Positions 32,524 to 40,432 of a DNA stretch of 64,000 nt are shown here, piece after piece. The stretch comes from Opitutia bacterium Tous-C4FEB (GTDB taxonomy: Bacteria; Verrucomicrobiota; Verrucomicrobiia; Opitutales; Opitutaceae): positions 1 to 64,000 of the forward strand of contig NEVA01000010.1 of NCBI GenBank assembly GCA_002304445.1, given 5' to 3'. Position numbers and translations under genes: made by a program. A model generated the notes under the pieces. The model was not told the DNA's origin, ran no database searches, and saw nothing but the letters and a program-made list of their open reading frames with translations. Numbering within the stretch: the first letter of the stretch is position 1; each line of letters starts with the position of its first letter.

Positions 32524-33285
32524 TCATTGGTCGCTCAGGAAATCCAACTGCGTGGGATCGACCCGCCCGGCGAGCAGCTTGCGCAGAAACATCTCGCGAT
32601 GTTGGGGCGTGCGCCCGAGCCGAAGCACGGCCTCGCGGTGCTCCTCGGTACCGTAGCCTTTGTGGGCCCCGAATCCATAACCGGGGAACGTGCGATCAAG
32701 CTCTTCCATCTGCCGGTCGCGCGTGACCTTCGCGATGATCGACGCCATCGCGATGCAGAGCGAGCGGGCATCGCCGGAGACGATCGCGGTGTGCGGATAA
32801 GGGAAATTGCGCAGGGGCAAGCCGTCGACCAACACCCGCGCCAAAACCGTCGGTTTAAAGCCGGCAATCTCCTCGGGCGCGGAGAACAAGTCCGGCTCCG
32901 TTTTCCGTTCGAATGCACTGGGCGGATAAATGCCTTCCAGCGCGCGGCGCATGGCCAGCTTGGTGGCACCGAGGATGTTGAACTGCGCGATCTCACCGAC
33001 ATCCGCCGAGCCGAAATGGGCATGAATTTTCCCTTCCTCCGCCAGCGCCTCAAAGTCCAGCCAAAGGGAATCCCGCTCCGCCGCCGTGAGCTGCTTCGAA
33101 TCGTTGATCCGGCGGGCATTGATTTCGGCCCACCGGCTTTCAAGAAAGTCCCGCGTCACCAACACCGCGCCCGCCACCACCGGGCCGGCGAGCGCACCGC
33201 GGCCCGCTTCATCGACTCCGATCAGACTGGCCACGCCCTCGATCTGCTTGAGATCGAAACCGCGAAGTTGGCGCCGTTTGGACAT
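32524..33285 (-). CDS. rnhB: Ribonuclease HII
   Basis: A 253-residue RNase HII that nicks RNA in RNA-DNA hybrids and at single ribonucleotides. The catalytic acidic residues sit in IGVDEAGRGALAGPVV near residue 24, NDSKQLTAAERD near 63, and SGDARSLCIAMASIIAKVTRDR near 175. GYGFGAHKGYGTEEH near 205 completes the signature. ATG 33285 is preferred over TTG 33294. It lies directly upstream of the kinase gene and directly downstream of the RNase HIII gene, all on one strand. Confidence 0.96.
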   Translation of the reverse strand: MSKRRQLRGFDLKQIEGVASLIGVDEAGRGALAGPVVAGAVLVTRDFLESRWAEINARRINDSKQLTAAERDSLWLDFEALAEEGKIHAHFGSADVGEIAQFNILGATKLAMRRALEGIYPPSAFERKTEPDLFSAPEEIAGFKPTVLARVLVDGLPLRNFPYPHTAIVSGDARSLCIAMASIIAKVTRDRQMEELDRTFPGYGFGAHKGYGTEEHREAVLRLGRTPQHREMFLRKLLAGRVDPTQLDFLSDQ

Positions 33286-33322
33286 GCTGGACAAGACTCA
33301 GGATACGCCGCGTCGGGACCGT

Positions 33323-34330
33323 TTACCACTCCATCTTCGGCGGCGGCGGCTTTAACGGCAATTCGTCGAGCTTCCCGGCGGCAGCGACCACTTCGTAGGC
33401 CGTGCGAAAGTGCAACTTCGCAAAATCGCCGAGCGCACGCGTGCCGAATTTTTGCATGATCTGGTCAGCCTGCCCTTTCACCAGCGGCCCTGCGCCCTTT
33501 TGCAGCTTTTCCCCAAACTGCTGCGAGAGCGTGTGCATGGCCCGGATAAACTCCGCCCGCGCCACGACCGAAGCGGCGGCGACGACCGGATCCGACTCCG
33601 CCTTGGTCCGCATCCTGAGTTCAAAATTTTGCACTCCTTTCTTCGCCAGTTCACGCTGCACCAGCGGTTGTTCGGTGAACTGGTCAAGCAGCCCCCAAGG
33701 CACCGGACGTTTCGCGAGCGCATCGCCGAGCGCCGTAGCGTGCTGCCAAGCGAGCAAACGGTTCAGATTCGCCCCGGGGCGTCCCATCAGCTCGTTGTAG
33801 CGGGCCATGGTCCGGCAATAACAGACCTCAACCACTACCCCTTTGGTGCCGCGGATCAACGCGTCGAGACGGACGATTTGGTTGTCCACGATTTTCTTCG
33901 AATCCTGCACGCCGGCCTCGCGCCACGCGTCGATCATGCCCTTGTCCGCGATCACGGTGGCCGCGACCACGGGACCGAAGAAATCTCCCTTGCCGCTTTC
34001 GTCGAGTCCCGCGTGTGCCTCGAACCAATCCGGGTGCAACACCTCGTCGTAGCCCAGCTTCGCCGCCATCGTGACTTCGGGCTCCAGCGTCATGGTCACA
34101 AACTCTTCGGTGCCCTTGCCGGCAATTACCACGACCTTGCGTTTGTCGTAAGCGGTCACGTTCACGTTACCGCCGCGAAACGCGAAACGCGCATAGGGCA
34201 CTTCAAAGGGCTCCCACTGGCGCGCGGCGCACAACGCACGGAGTTTCTCCATCTGCGCGTCGTCGAGCTTGATGGTATAGGTGCTGAGCTTCTTGGGTTT
34301 TTCCTCGGCAGGTTCGCCGTGCTTGGCCAT
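33323..34330 (-). CDS. rnhC: Ribonuclease HIII
   Basis: A 335-residue RNase HIII. The N-terminal TBP-like substrate-binding domain (about residues 15-95) distinguishes it from RNase HII. The catalytic part starts with GLDESGKGDFFGPVVAAT near 110, then DSKKIVDNQIVRL near 145 and SDPVVAAASVVARAEF near 250. It cleaves RNA in RNA-DNA hybrids. The gene sits 37 bases upstream of rnhB in the same orientation. Finding both paralogues side by side is unusual, because many bacteria carry one or keep them apart. It is divergent from mutY with 30 bases between starts. Confidence 0.95.
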   Translation of the reverse strand: MAKHGEPAEEKPKKLSTYTIKLDDAQMEKLRALCAARQWEPFEVPYARFAFRGGNVNVTAYDKRKVVVIAGKGTEEFVTMTLEPEVTMAAKLGYDEVLHPDWFEAHAGLDESGKGDFFGPVVAATVIADKGMIDAWREAGVQDSKKIVDNQIVRLDALIRGTKGVVVEVCYCRTMARYNELMGRPGANLNRLLAWQHATALGDALAKRPVPWGLLDQFTEQPLVQRELAKKGVQNFELRMRTKAESDPVVAAASVVARAEFIRAMHTLSQQFGEKLQKGAGPLVKGQADQIMQKFGTRALGDFAKLHFRTAYEVVAAAGKLDELPLKPPPPKMEW

Positions 34331-34360: not shown

Positions 34361-35416
34361 ATGACACGCAAAACTTCCGCCTCAACCCATGCCGCCGCCC
34401 TGACCGGAAAACGTGCAGAATTCTCCGCGGCGTTGCTTGGTTGGTATCGGGTCAACGCGCGCCGTTTGCCCTGGCGGGAAACGCCTTCGCTTTACCGCAC
34501 GGTGGTCAGCGAGTTCATGCTTCAACAGACGCAGGTTAAAACCGTCCTTCCCTACTTCGCCCGTTGGCATGATGCGCTGCCAGACTTCGCCGCCCTGGCC
34601 GCCGCTCCGGAAGCCCAAGTGCTCAAACTCTGGGAAGGCCTCGGCTACTACTCGCGCGCCCGAAATCTCCACCGGCTCGCCCGAGCGATCGCCGCGCTGC
34701 CCGCCGCACCGCGCACCCCGGCCGAGTGGCAAGAGCTGCCCGGCGTCGGGCCTTACACCGCTGCCGCCATCACCAGTATTTCTTTCGGCGCGCCGGCTGC
34801 CTGCGTCGACGGCAATGTGGTGCGGATCCTCGCGCGGTTGACCGCCGATGCCACCGAGTATCGCGACAGCGCAACGGCGGCGAAGGCGTTCAAGCCTCTG
34901 GCGGACGCCCTGCTCTCCACCAGCGCAGCCGGGGACCACAACCAAGCCATGATGGAGCTGGGAGCCACCATTTGCTCCCGGCAAAACCCGCTCTGCCTCA
35001 CCTGCCCCGTCCGCGCGTTCTGCGCCGCATCCGCGCGCGGCGAACCCGAGGCGTATCCCCGGCTTGCACCAAAAAAAATCGAACACGTCGCCGTCACCCG
35101 CATTTGGTGTGAACGCGAAGGGGCCCTGCTGCTACACCGCGCCGCCGCCGATGCCCGTCGTCTCGCCGGTCAGCACGAGCTGCCCACCGCCGCCCAATTT
35201 GGCCTCACCGAAACCGCTGCCACCCGCGGCCTGCTTCTCGCGACTCATAAGCGCGGCATCACGCGATTTTTGATCACAGAGTCGATCCACACCGCCGTCC
35301 CGCCCCGGGGAAAACTCGCTCCCGGACTGATCTGGGTGCCGCGCGCAGAGCTCACTTCAATTACCCTGTCGGGCCCTCATCGGCGCTGGATCACCGAAAT
35401 TTTGCGCCGGAGTTAA
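34361..35416 (+). CDS. mutY: A/G-specific adenine DNA glycosylase
   Basis: A 351-residue MutY that removes adenine mispaired with 8-oxoguanine. Visible are SEFMLQQTQVKTVLPYF with the catalytic Glu near residue 49, the helix-hairpin-helix ELPGVGPYTAAAI near 125, the catalytic-Asp segment VDGNVVRILAR near 148, and the Fe-S ligands in the C-X6-C-X2-C-X5-C array around residues 206-222. A divergent NUDIX-like C-terminal domain follows (about 235-350). ATG 34361 gives a basic N-terminus. The reading frame is open far upstream, inside the antisense of rnhC, which I regard as non-coding. Confidence 0.95.
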   Translation: MTRKTSASTHAAALTGKRAEFSAALLGWYRVNARRLPWRETPSLYRTVVSEFMLQQTQVKTVLPYFARWHDALPDFAALAAAPEAQVLKLWEGLGYYSRARNLHRLARAIAALPAAPRTPAEWQELPGVGPYTAAAITSISFGAPAACVDGNVVRILARLTADATEYRDSATAAKAFKPLADALLSTSAAGDHNQAMMELGATICSRQNPLCLTCPVRAFCAASARGEPEAYPRLAPKKIEHVAVTRIWCEREGALLLHRAAADARRLAGQHELPTAAQFGLTETAATRGLLLATHKRGITRFLITESIHTAVPPRGKLAPGLIWVPRAELTSITLSGPHRRWITEILRRS

Positions 35417-35421
35417 CCTCT

Positions 35422-36378
35422 TCAAAACCCCGGCGCCGCAGCCAGCAAAGCCTCGAGGTTCTCTTTCGACCGGAGCACGTCTTCCGACTTCACCCGCGGG
35501 CTGAGTTCCAAAACCAGTTCCTGACCCGGGCGCCAAAATTCGCTCACCATCTTAAAATCGATGTGACCGGAGCCAATCGGTTGGTGGTCCTGCCCGCTCG
35601 CACTCACATCGTGGAGGTGAAACCCAATAAGCTGCGGCGCATTTTTCGTCAGGTGGACGCGATGATCGAGCAATCCCATCGTCTGCTTGATGTCGGCGTG
35701 ACCCGTGTCGTGCCAGTATCCCGCCGGGCTTCCTTCCGACAAACCCGCGACAAAATCCGCGTAATCGGCATCAAGCGGCAGCTCCTCAAATTTCTCCCGA
35801 TTTTCGAAGCCCAGTTTCACGCCCTTGACCGCCGCATAGTCGAAAACTTCGAGCACGCTTGCCCGCGTTTGCGCCCAAAACGGCTTCATCCGCTTCCGCA
35901 GTTTTTCCAGCGCCTTGCCCACGAGCGCCGCATACTTCGGGTCCCCGTCGCGACCGGCGTTGGGCTTCCCGCTGAGATATTTTTTCAGCTTCCTCGCCGG
36001 ACTCGACCAGAAAAATGAAACGCTGCCGAGGTGACACACCACCACTCGGGCCCTGACTTGTGCCGCGAAATCGATCGAGCGCTTGGTGTGACGCACCCAC
36101 TGCTCATGCTCCTTATGGTCGGTCGCCGAAGGCTCGAAAAGATTCGGCGCGGCCTGCACGACTCCGATCGGCAGCGGGCAAAAGTTGTGGGTCGAGCCCA
36201 CCTTGATCATGCCCTCCTCCACCGCTTTCAGGATACCGGGGACCAGCACGATCCGCACACCATGGCTCAGCTCAACCTGATCGAATCCAAGATCGGCCAT
36301 CTCCCGCAACATCGCATAGCCGTCTTAGTGACGGTGTGAACACCAACAGCTTGAAAGCGAAAACGTCGGACGCGCCAT
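35422..36378 (-). pseudogene. Sugar phosphate isomerase/epimerase-like TIM barrel, interrupted by an early stop
   Basis: The body (35422-36312, 296 residues) is a xylose-isomerase-like TIM barrel: DQVELSHGVR, ARVVVCHLGSVSFFW, LGFENREKFEELPLD, GYWHDTGHADIKQ (metal-ligand region) and LIGFHLHDVSASG. In the same frame the coding signal continues upstream to ATG 36378, as MARPTFSLSSCWCSHRH, then TAA at 36327-36325, then DGYAMLREMADLGF. The SxCW...RHxDGYAML sequence looks like the family's first strand. The stop therefore appears to be a nonsense change or sequencing error in codon 18. A restart at ATG 36312 would make a barrel lacking its first strand. The end lies five bases from the convergent mutY stop. 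Confidence 0.75.
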
Positions 36379-36412: not shown

Positions 36413-36454
36413 AAAAAAAGACCGCCGCCTGAAATTAGTCAGGCGGCGGTCTTT
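36413..36454 (-). terminator. Strong rho-independent terminator of rpsU
   Basis: A perfect 16-bp stem (36417-36432 with 36439-36454) has a six-base loop. On the minus strand it runs into seven T residues (the A-run at 36413-36419 on the plus strand). It begins 22 bases after the rpsU stop codon. There is no matching T-run on the other side, so it acts for the minus strand. Confidence 0.93.
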
Positions 36455-36476: not shown

Positions 36477-36674
36477 TTAGTCGGCGTGGCGACGACGGAG
36501 CATGTCCGTGAACTTCATAACCTTCTCGCGGCGGCGGCGCTTCTCGCACGGCTTCTCGAAGTAACGCTTGGCGCGGGTGCCCTTGATGATGTTCTCGCGC
36601 TCGAGCTTCTTCTTCATGCGACGAATCGCACGGTCGATGGGCTCGTTTTTGCGGATTTTGATTTCGATAGACAT
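36477..36674 (-). CDS. rpsU: Small ribosomal subunit protein bS21
   Basis: A 65-residue basic protein of the 30S subunit, with the family order: SIEIKIRKNEPIDRAIRRMK at the N-terminus, ENIIKGTRAKRYFEKP in the middle, and a strongly basic region CEKRRRREKV before the end MLRRRHAD. bS21 helps mRNA base-pair with 16S rRNA in initiation. ATG 36674 is clear; longer frames upstream are non-coding. It is monocistronic, ends in a strong terminator, and is divergent from dnaE. Confidence 0.97.
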   Translation of the reverse strand: MSIEIKIRKNEPIDRAIRRMKKKLERENIIKGTRAKRYFEKPCEKRRRREKVMKFTDMLRRRHAD

Positions 36675-36841
36675 ACTCGGGAGTCGTTTGGTGAAGGAAA
36701 AGCCCGCTAACAAGCCAAGCCGCATCGCTCGCGTCAACGGCTTTTTTCCAACCCGCTTTGCCGCAATTTTTCAGCTTCCGAGGGCGCAAAACGGGCCTTT
36801 CGCCTTGCGCGATTCCGGCGCCGCCTTTGCCTTCCTCGGCT

Positions 36842-39800
36842 GTGCCGTCCGCCGACCTGAATTTCGTCCATCTCCACGTTCATTCGGACTACAGTCTGCT
36901 CGACGGCGCTTGTCGCATTGATCGCTTGATGGACCGGGCAGTCGCCCTCGGCATGCCCGCCCTCGCGCTCACCGACCACGGAAACCTTTTTGGCGCTATC
37001 GACTTCTACAACACCGCCAAATCCAAAGGCATCAAACCGCTCGTCGGTTGCGAGCTCTACCTCGTTGAGACGTCACGCCTTGAGAAACACGGCCGCTCCG
37101 ACGACGACGGCAAAAGCATCTTCCACCTCGGCCTCCTGGCGAAGAACCTAACCGGCTACCAAAACCTGCTCAAACTTGTTTCCGACGCCCACCTCAAGGG
37201 CTTCTACTACAAGCCTCGCACCGATCTCGATACCCTCGCCAAATACGCCCCCGGACTCATCGGCTTCACCGGCTGTCTTGCCTCGCTCGTTCCCCAGCAC
37301 CTCCTCCACGACCGCGAGGACGAAGCCCGGAAAGCCTGCGCGCGTTTCGTCGATATCTTCGGCCGCGAAAACTACTTCGTCGAGATCCAGGACCACGGCA
37401 TCCCCGAGCAACGGAAAATTATCCCCGGCCTCCTCAAACTTGCCGAAGAGTTCAACCTGAAGGTCATCGCCACGAACGACGTTCACTACGTCAACTCCGC
37501 CGATTCCGGGCCCCACGACGCGATGCTCTGCATCCAGACGGGGGCCAAAATCGAAGACGAGAAACGCATGAAGTTTTCGGGTCATGAGTTCTACCTGAAG
37601 TCCCGGGCTGAGATGGAGAAACTCTTCATCGAGGTCCCCGAATCCATCACCAACACCCAGCTCGTCGCCGAGATGTGCGACCTCGCGATTCCTTTCCCCA
37701 AAGGCAGCGAGCGCTACCCCAAGTTTCCCCTACCCGTCGAAGTCTCCGCCAAGACCGACCGCGCCGGTTACCTAAAGGACCTTTGCATCGCCGGTCTTCG
37801 CCGTCGCTACGGTCTGGATTATGAACGCCCCGCCGCCCACGCCGATCCCGCGCTCGGCCAGACCCTCGTTGATCGCCTCGATTTCGAACTCAGCATCATC
37901 GGCAAAACCGGCTTCATCGACTACTTCCTCGTCGTTTGGGACTTCATCGATTGGGCGCGCAAACATGACATCCCCGTCGGCCCCGGCCGTGGCTCCGGCG
38001 CCGGTTGCCTCGTCGCCTACGTCCTCGCGATCACCAACCTCGATCCACTCCGTTTCAAGCTGCTCTTCGAGCGCTTCCTGAATCCCGAGCGCGTCTCCCC
38101 GCCCGACTTCGACATCGACTTCTGCATGAGACGCCGCGGCGAGGTCATCGACTACGTCCGCGAGAAATACGGCAAGGACTGCGTCGCCAACATCATCACC
38201 TACGGCACGCTCGGCGCCAAGATGGTCATCCGCGACATCTCGCGCGTTCACAATCTCGCCTACGCCGACGCCGACCGGCTCGCGAAGATGATCCCCGACG
38301 AGCTCAACATCACGCTCGAGGACGCCCTCAAGAAGTCCACCGAGCTGCGCGACGAAGTCGCCCGCAATCCCGTCGCCAAAAAAATCTTCGACCAAGCCCG
38401 CGTCCTCGAGGGCATGGTCCGCAACACCGGCAAACACGCCGCCGGCATCATCATCACCGACCGCCCCCTCGACGAGTTCGTTCCGCTCACCCTTCAGGAA
38501 GAAGACGTCACCGTGCAGTTCGACATGAACGCCGTCGGCAAGCTCGGCCTGCTGAAAATGGACTTCCTCGGCCTGAAGACGCTCACCGTCATCGCCGACG
38601 CCGTGGACAACATCCGCCGCACCGCCGATCCGAAGTTCGACATTGAGACCATTCCGCTCGAAGACGCTAAGACCTTCGCCCTGCTCAACTCCGGCCGCAC
38701 CACCGGCGTGTTCCAGCTTGAATCCGGCGGCATGCAAAATCTCTGCCGCCAGATCAGCCTCTCCACGATCGACGAGATCGTCGCCCTCATCGCCCTTTAC
38801 CGCCCCGGCCCCATGGAGTGGATCCCCGATTACGTCCGCGGCAAAAAAGACCCGTCCACCGTCACCTACCCGCACAAGCTCCTCGAAGAAGTCTGCCGCG
38901 AGACCTACGGCATCATGGTCTATCAGGAACAAGTCATGGAGGCCGCCAAGATTATCGCCGGCTACACCCTCGGCGGCGCCGACATGCTCCGCCGCGCCAT
39001 GGGCAAAAAAGACGCCGATGCCATGGCCAAGGAGCGCACCAAGTTCGTCGAAGGCGCCAAACGCGTGAACAACATCGAGGAAAAAACCGCCAATTCGATC
39101 TTCGACATTCTCAACAAATTCGCCGGCTACGGCTTCAACAAATCCCACTCTGCCGCCTACGCGATCCTCAGCTACCAGACCGGTTTCCTGAAAGCCAACT
39201 ACCCGGTACAGTTCATGGCCGCCATGCTCAGCTCCGAGCTCGGCAACTCCGAAAAGGTCTCTCACTTTGTCGCCGAATGCGAAGCCATGGGCCTCAAGGT
39301 CCTCGGCCCCGACGTGAACGAGTCCCGCGAGATGTTCACGCCTGTCGCCGACAAAATCCGCTTTGGCCTCGCCGGCGTCAAAGGCGTGGGAGAACTCGCC
39401 GCGCAAAAGATCATCGCCGAACGCGACGCCAAAGGTCCTTTCGCCTCCTTCGAAGATTTCATCTCCCGCGTCGACGGCCGTGCGATCAACAAGCGTGTGC
39501 TCGAGCACCTCTCGAAGACCGGCGCCTTCGATTTTAGCGGCGCTCTCCGCAAAAAAATATTCGACAGCATCGACGGCGCCATGGCCACCGCCGCCAATAA
39601 TGCCCGCGACAAAGCCGCCGGCCAACACAGCTTCATGGATATGCTCGCCGAGCCCGCCCCGGCGAAGAAATCTCCCGCCTCCACGACCGTCTCGCGCACC
39701 GCCCTCCCCTCTGCCCCCGGCTCCGCCGACAGTGAGGACTTCACCTCCGCCGAGCGCCTCATTTTCGAAAAAGAACTCCTCGGCTTCTACGTCTCCGGCC

Positions 39801-40432
39801 ATCCGATGAACGTTTACGCCGGCATCACCGACGCCGTGGACACCTACGCCGTGGACGACCTGCTCAAACAGGGCGACCGCGTCGAATTCCGGATCGGGGG
39901 CATCGCCAGCAACATCGTCAAACGGCTCTCGAAAAAAGATAACCGCCCGTGGGCGATGTTCACCCTCGCCACGAAGAACGCTTCGGTCGCGCTCAACCTC
40001 TTCGCCGACGGCTACGCCAACTATGGTGCCATCCTCGTCGAAAACGCGCCCATCCTCGTCCTCGGCAACATCATCACCGGCACCGAGGGCCCACGCATCA
40101 ACGTCAAGGAGTGCTACCCGCTCGACAACGAGGTCACCCGTCTCGTCAAAAAGGTCACTTGGCTCCTCAACCCCGCGCACCCCGAGCTCCCTTCGTTCCT
40201 ACGACTCCTCCGGGAAACCTTGAACAAGCAGGTCGGCGACACCCGCGTCGAATTCGCCTTCATTTTCGAGAAACGCATCGCGCCCTACGCCGAGGCCAGC
40301 ACCGCGCTCACCTGGAAACTGAACGGCGCCACCTTCCAGCAGCTACGCGCCCATCCCGCCGTTGCCGGTGTCCAGCTCCAAACCCGCGCCCTCGAGTTGA
40401 AGCAGGACCGTAAATGGTCGAAGAAGTCCTGA
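36842..40432 (+). CDS. dnaE: DNA polymerase III alpha subunit
   Basis: The catalytic subunit of the replicative polymerase, 1196 residues from GTG 36842. The PHP domain starts with FVHLHVHSDYSLLDG. The palm contains GPGRGSGAGCLVAYVL near residue 380 and the catalytic PDFDIDFCMRRRGEV near 421. The fingers include NTGKHAAGIIIT and YQEQVMEAAKIIAGY. A helix-hairpin-helix region (GLAGVKGVGELAAQKI) near 845 and the OB fold follow, ending in a C-terminal domain. A TTG 28 codons upstream (36758) is the alternative start. GTG is chosen because it directly precedes the conserved N-terminus. Length and order match DnaE1-type enzymes. Confidence 0.96.
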   Translation: MPSADLNFVHLHVHSDYSLLDGACRIDRLMDRAVALGMPALALTDHGNLFGAIDFYNTAKSKGIKPLVGCELYLVETSRLEKHGRSDDDGKSIFHLGLLAKNLTGYQNLLKLVSDAHLKGFYYKPRTDLDTLAKYAPGLIGFTGCLASLVPQHLLHDREDEARKACARFVDIFGRENYFVEIQDHGIPEQRKIIPGLLKLAEEFNLKVIATNDVHYVNSADSGPHDAMLCIQTGAKIEDEKRMKFSGHEFYLKSRAEMEKLFIEVPESITNTQLVAEMCDLAIPFPKGSERYPKFPLPVEVSAKTDRAGYLKDLCIAGLRRRYGLDYERPAAHADPALGQTLVDRLDFELSIIGKTGFIDYFLVVWDFIDWARKHDIPVGPGRGSGAGCLVAYVLAITNLDPLRFKLLFERFLNPERVSPPDFDIDFCMRRRGEVIDYVREKYGKDCVANIITYGTLGAKMVIRDISRVHNLAYADADRLAKMIPDELNITLEDALKKSTELRDEVARNPVAKKIFDQARVLEGMVRNTGKHAAGIIITDRPLDEFVPLTLQEEDVTVQFDMNAVGKLGLLKMDFLGLKTLTVIADAVDNIRRTADPKFDIETIPLEDAKTFALLNSGRTTGVFQLESGGMQNLCRQISLSTIDEIVALIALYRPGPMEWIPDYVRGKKDPSTVTYPHKLLEEVCRETYGIMVYQEQVMEAAKIIAGYTLGGADMLRRAMGKKDADAMAKERTKFVEGAKRVNNIEEKTANSIFDILNKFAGYGFNKSHSAAYAILSYQTGFLKANYPVQFMAAMLSSELGNSEKVSHFVAECEAMGLKVLGPDVNESREMFTPVADKIRFGLAGVKGVGELAAQKIIAERDAKGPFASFEDFISRVDGRAINKRVLEHLSKTGAFDFSGALRKKIFDSIDGAMATAANNARDKAAGQHSFMDMLAEPAPAKKSPASTTVSRTALPSAPGSADSEDFTSAERLIFEKELLGFYVSGHPMNVYAGITDAVDTYAVDDLLKQGDRVEFRIGGIASNIVKRLSKKDNRPWAMFTLATKNASVALNLFADGYANYGAILVENAPILVLGNIITGTEGPRINVKECYPLDNEVTRLVKKVTWLLNPAHPELPSFLRLLRETLNKQVGDTRVEFAFIFEKRIAPYAEASTALTWKLNGATFQQLRAHPAVAGVQLQTRALELKQDRKWSKKS

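Follow-up and report, generated by a model that had tools for sequence, protein, structure and literature searches.

Is the sugar isomerase-like gene of Opitutia bacterium Tous-C4FEB broken by the stop codon near its beginning, is it translated from a second start, or is the base itself wrong? The gene occupies positions 35422-36378 on the minus strand of the window, by which we mean the whole stretch of 64,000 nucleotides analysed here, and comprises 319 codons, two stops included. Read from 36378 to 35422, it translates into MARPTFSLSSCWCSHRH, followed by a stop and then by DGYAMLREM... The stop is a TAA at 36325-36327 (codon 18, minus strand), past which the frame stays open down to the TGA at 35422. 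An earlier note, made from the letters alone, had described the same coordinates and the same reading, with coding signal on both sides of the TAA in one frame, and in both respects it was correct. It had offered fresh inactivation, a restart at ATG 36312 and a sequencing error as explanations. We hold it highly probable that the TAA arose naturally and recently as a nonsense change, inactivating a gene which is repeatedly lost in the genus, and the evidence for this reading is set out below together with that for the alternatives.

The protein family and its N-terminal block

The part of the window protein behind the stop matches the Pfam family PF01261 (AP_endonuc_2, Xylose isomerase-like TIM barrel) with 54.8 bits (gathering cut-off 31.1, E = 1.4e-14), and the cut-off is also passed by the relatives L022, which is intact, with 48.8 bits and L091 with 64.8 bits. 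A model of L022, for which 59 sequences were aligned, reaches a mean pLDDT of 89.8 and supports a complete barrel fold for this relative. According to Foldseek, the closest solved fold is 3wqo (MJ1311, D-tagatose 3-epimerase-like, E = 2.1e-13), which a sequence search of the PDB also ranks first (E = 6.3e-05), and UlaE and D-tagatose 3-epimerases are other close ones. These solved enzymes have a similar fold with only 13-16% identity, and the window copy differs from them in being interrupted. The gene should encode a sugar-isomerase/epimerase-like protein; the matches make its TIM-barrel fold clear but point to no particular substrate. A weak likeness to the cobamide-remodelling phosphodiesterase CbiR (NF041277) was seen in the window protein (E = 0.00033) and in L091 (E = 4.5e-06), while L022 showed no similarity to it. 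Membership in CbiR was rejected, as the scores of 20.2 bits (window) and 26.3 bits (L091) compare with a curated cut-off of 105.

A scan of genome contigs gave 71 loci encoding a relative, with titles naming Verrucomicrobia or groups within it, and 70 of them reach the position of the stop; the exception, L087, is ended by a contig edge. Every one of the 70 reads a sense codon where the window has its stop and shows the upstream block, as LS..W.S.R..DG or something near it; 16 further rows of the genome search, some of these being the same contigs, agree. The closest relatives encode Gln there, namely by CAA in genomes G007 and G006 and by CAG in G001 and G008. Thus, the 17 codons before the stop (36328-36378, minus strand) form a genuine N-terminus of the family, as the earlier note had supposed. 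They include the equivalents of barrel strand 1, predicted with high confidence at residues 5-9 of the L022 model, and six residues (P4, L8, S9, W12, S14 and R16) which, together with G20, are the ones before Met 23 that are invariant in all 59 aligned relatives. The start codon of the window gene, ATG at 36378-36376, is located one codon upstream of a GCG (codon 2, 36373-36375, minus strand), and 61 of the 70 relatives, including L022 with GTG, have ATG, GTG or TTG at the position of this GCG, which suggests that the family usually starts one codon downstream of ATG 36378. The GCG was considered as a second lesion and rejected, an ATG being present one codon upstream and Ala being found there in 4 of the 59 relatives as well. 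In addition, L067 (1938-2960), a relative from the NC_groundwater_2007 MAG that shares 65% identity with the window protein, is interrupted in frame by a stop at its codon 35. Its frame is otherwise well kept, and here, too, the gene looks freshly broken.

The same alignment bears on the restart. Translation might begin again at the ATG of codon 23 (36310-36312, minus strand), 12 bases past the TAA, and yield a working protein shortened to 296 residues; an ATG so close behind the stop would allow re-initiation, and what is left of the protein, as given above, still matches AP_endonuc_2. However, the homologues that would have spoken for this ATG as the natural start, beginning at its position and lacking the upstream block, were searched for by alignment and found in none of the 70 reachable loci, which rules it out as the natural start of the gene. 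The product of a restart would lose the predicted strand E5-9 and all seven invariant residues, and because of these losses it would probably not work. By eye there is no clear Shine-Dalgarno sequence before ATG 36312, which carries little weight because the relatives' own starts show none either. Taken together, a functional protein from ATG 36312 appears very unlikely.

The locus in the genus and the number of losses

The window gene lies between two genes which we take, from their sequences, to be rpsU (ribosomal protein S21, 36477-36674, minus strand) upstream and a convergent mutY-like gene (34361-35416, plus strand) downstream; the third name used here, dnaE, for the frame at 36758-40432, is likewise our assumption. 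The frames of rpsU, mutY and dnaE are all open. After rpsU there is an inverted repeat with a run of T, by eye terminator-like (36413-36454, minus strand). The adjoining minus-strand ORFs at 32524-33294 and 33323-34330 look by eye like two types of RNase H (HII-like and HIII-like). In G001, G004, G006, G013 and G015 (loci L118, L119, L120, L133 and L134), the match to the dnaE-like protein is split in two near residue 865, which makes an insertion there likely in these genomes.

Thirteen genomes of the genus, including that of the window (G000), were searched with the intact protein of G006 and with rpsU, and the intervals between rpsU and mutY were read in 11 of them as far as the sequence extended. 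The gene is intact in three genomes (G006, G001 and G008), and in G011 it is open over residues 73-292, where the contig ends. In G008, as in the sister genome G007, it is flanked by rpsU and mutY as in the window. The loci of G001 (L109) and G006 (L111), both with the intact gene, show no convincing mutY match within about 440 bases downstream; the mutY matches of these two genomes sit on other contigs, so their downstream neighbour probably differs. The window gene bears a premature stop where orthologues at the same locus are intact, which, like a frameshift, is what defines a pseudogene.

The sister genome G007 (taken as contig NSIG01000070.1 of Baikal-G3, locus L021, 1938-2891) carries a stop of its own at codon 235, a TGA. 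Residues that are invariant in all 59 other sequences, for example H39, G40, W124, N193, E195 and H256, have been replaced in this copy, with no frameshift. An inactivating lesion common to G000 and G007 was looked for in the coding region and rejected: the two stops are not the same, and at the family start G007 still has GTG. G003 has two fragments of the gene in different frames with the ends missing. In G004 there is a weak trace of about 24-30 residues (E = 0.009 in the genome search and 2e-5 in a local comparison), which is located between rpsU and mutY; a second piece of the local comparison overlies mutY and may be due to chance. In G002, G005, G009 and G012 nothing recognisable is left, and only 82-83 bases separate the last aligned codons of rpsU and mutY, which is a clean deletion between the two genes. 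In G010 none of the gene, rpsU and mutY was found and the state could not be judged, which leaves 12 of the 13 genomes judgeable.

These data also bear on the idea of readthrough at the TAA, or of its recoding into an amino acid. In favour of it, many different residues are tolerated at position 18 among the relatives, but TAA is in ordinary use as a stop in the window, where it ends rpsU, the mutY-like gene and 10 of the 43 long, largely non-overlapping ORFs of a mechanical list. Moreover, the defect of the sister genome lies elsewhere in the gene and is a TGA. We rejected this idea, to which we give next to no credence.

Two FastTree trees of mutY and dnaE, one for nucleotides and one for proteins, were calculated with 12 genus genomes and two outgroups. 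The groupings were G000 with G007, G003 with G008 (support 1.00 and 0.84), G009 with G012, G005 and G002, and G004 with G011. The genomes with an intact or open gene (G008, G006, G001 and G011) are scattered among those that have lost it, and at least four losses are thus required if the gene was never regained. The gene seems to be dispensable in the genus and has been lost again and again. A sample of 250 genomes from the wider family gave a match to it in 204, broken copies included; flags for internal stops in this search were not counted, since many matches end at residue 312-317 of the query, which may be natural ends. At least four losses by different routes (stops, frameshift plus deletions, and clean excision) in the 12 judgeable genomes, set against these 204 of 250, were the ground for supposing that the loss is favoured, and not merely tolerated, in genus members with small genomes, a supposition which we regard as rather doubtful. 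A relation between genome size and gene loss was rejected: after division by completeness, the four genomes that keep the gene intact or open measure 3.4-6.1 Mb, and the remaining eight 3.3-3.9 Mb (p = 0.073, the genomes being non-independent).

Substitutions and erosion in the window and sister copies

For this gene, the dN/dS between G000 and G007 amounts to 0.73; the corresponding values are 0.21 for mutY, 0.06 for dnaE and 0.08 for rpsU, which is short and has four changes. On the window branch we placed 8 nonsynonymous changes, 1 stop and 4 synonymous changes, and on the G007 branch 33, 1 and 14, respectively, with 5 changes unplaced; most of the divergence in this gene therefore falls on the branch of G007. 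In a codon model with five genomes and separate values for the branches (background omega 0.056), the G007 branch had an omega of 0.70 (p = 1.4e-13 against the background), and the window branch, with few changes, one of 1.02 (p = 0.035); neither was different from 1. This clearly points to relaxed selection on the gene in the sister genome. For the window the codon test says little, because in the control gene mutY the G007 branch reached p = 0.036 and the window branch p = 0.16 against the mutY background, and omega = 1 was rejected for mutY on neither branch (p = 0.12 and 0.15). Only dnaE behaved cleanly as a control. In this gene the window branch has a length of only 0.03, compared with 0.19 in mutY, and its synonymous changes were placed with saturated outgroups. 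With a mutY-like omega of 0.2, the probability of at least 8 nonsynonymous changes among 12 is 0.053.

The two copies also differ in how far they are eroded. At the 101 columns that are conserved to at least 95%, the window copy has 1 departure, which is common to G007, and none of the other changes on the window branch lies at such a column. G007 has 20 departures at the same columns, its stop included, while leave-one-out counts for 59 control rows were 0-5, except for one row with 18. Furthermore, the window copy has 10 states unseen in the relatives, one of which is the stop, and this is within the range of 0-17 found for 58 of the 59 control rows. As the window copy is intact apart from its stop, the break ought to be young, and on this evidence the window gene would be a young pseudogene, if it is one.

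Origin of the stop and likeness to known pseudogenes

A gene intact apart from one base is also what an error would leave, and the TAA could be a wrong base or a minority variant in the assembly, with the real gene intact. This would fit with a single substitution in a frame that is otherwise in order and keeps its conserved residues, and with the wider family, where most of the sampled genomes match the gene. On the other hand, the error would have struck just the gene that is lost repeatedly in the genus and whose nearest relative is a pseudogene. Even with the stop set aside, 8 of the 12 changes on the window branch are nonsynonymous, which is a high share, though of few changes. In addition, the TAA does not lie inside a homopolymer, and the open frames of rpsU, mutY and dnaE around it count against an error as well. 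We consider an error unlikely, though a good deal less so than a restart, and prefer a natural event mainly because of the context, in which the gene has been lost repeatedly and the sister copy has decayed, and not because of the base itself. Of the three readings in the earlier note, fresh inactivation is thus the best supported.

As the nearest relatives carry CAA or CAG, the TAA is most simply one C-to-T change from CAA. A single change of this kind would have turned the Gln codon 18 from CAA into TAA, translation from the normal start would end after 16-17 residues and would presumably give no working enzyme, and the remaining frame would still be in order since the change is recent. Inactivation of this kind supposes that the base is real and that the lineage probably no longer needs the enzyme.

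Taken alone, this is one broken gene and ordinary; it has some use as one step in a short series that shows a gene decaying at a single site in uncultured Opitutaceae. It also calls for caution in annotation, as a pipeline would probably call a protein of 296 residues from ATG 36312 and overlook the break. Concerning gene loss in general, a part of PMC12388122 reports that the symbiont Candidatus Didemniditutus mandelae has a genome with numerous pseudogenes, and a part of PMC6794327 deals with progressive gene loss in freshwater Methylophilaceae. Neither passage is about this gene, and among the matches listed in this literature no title is about it either. The window gene resembles the known recent nonsense pseudogenes of gene-losing lineages in having one nonsense change, a frame that is otherwise kept and relatives that are further decayed. 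There is no difference in kind from such pseudogenes, and within one genus the intact, stopped, eroded, fragmented and deleted states of the same gene are found.
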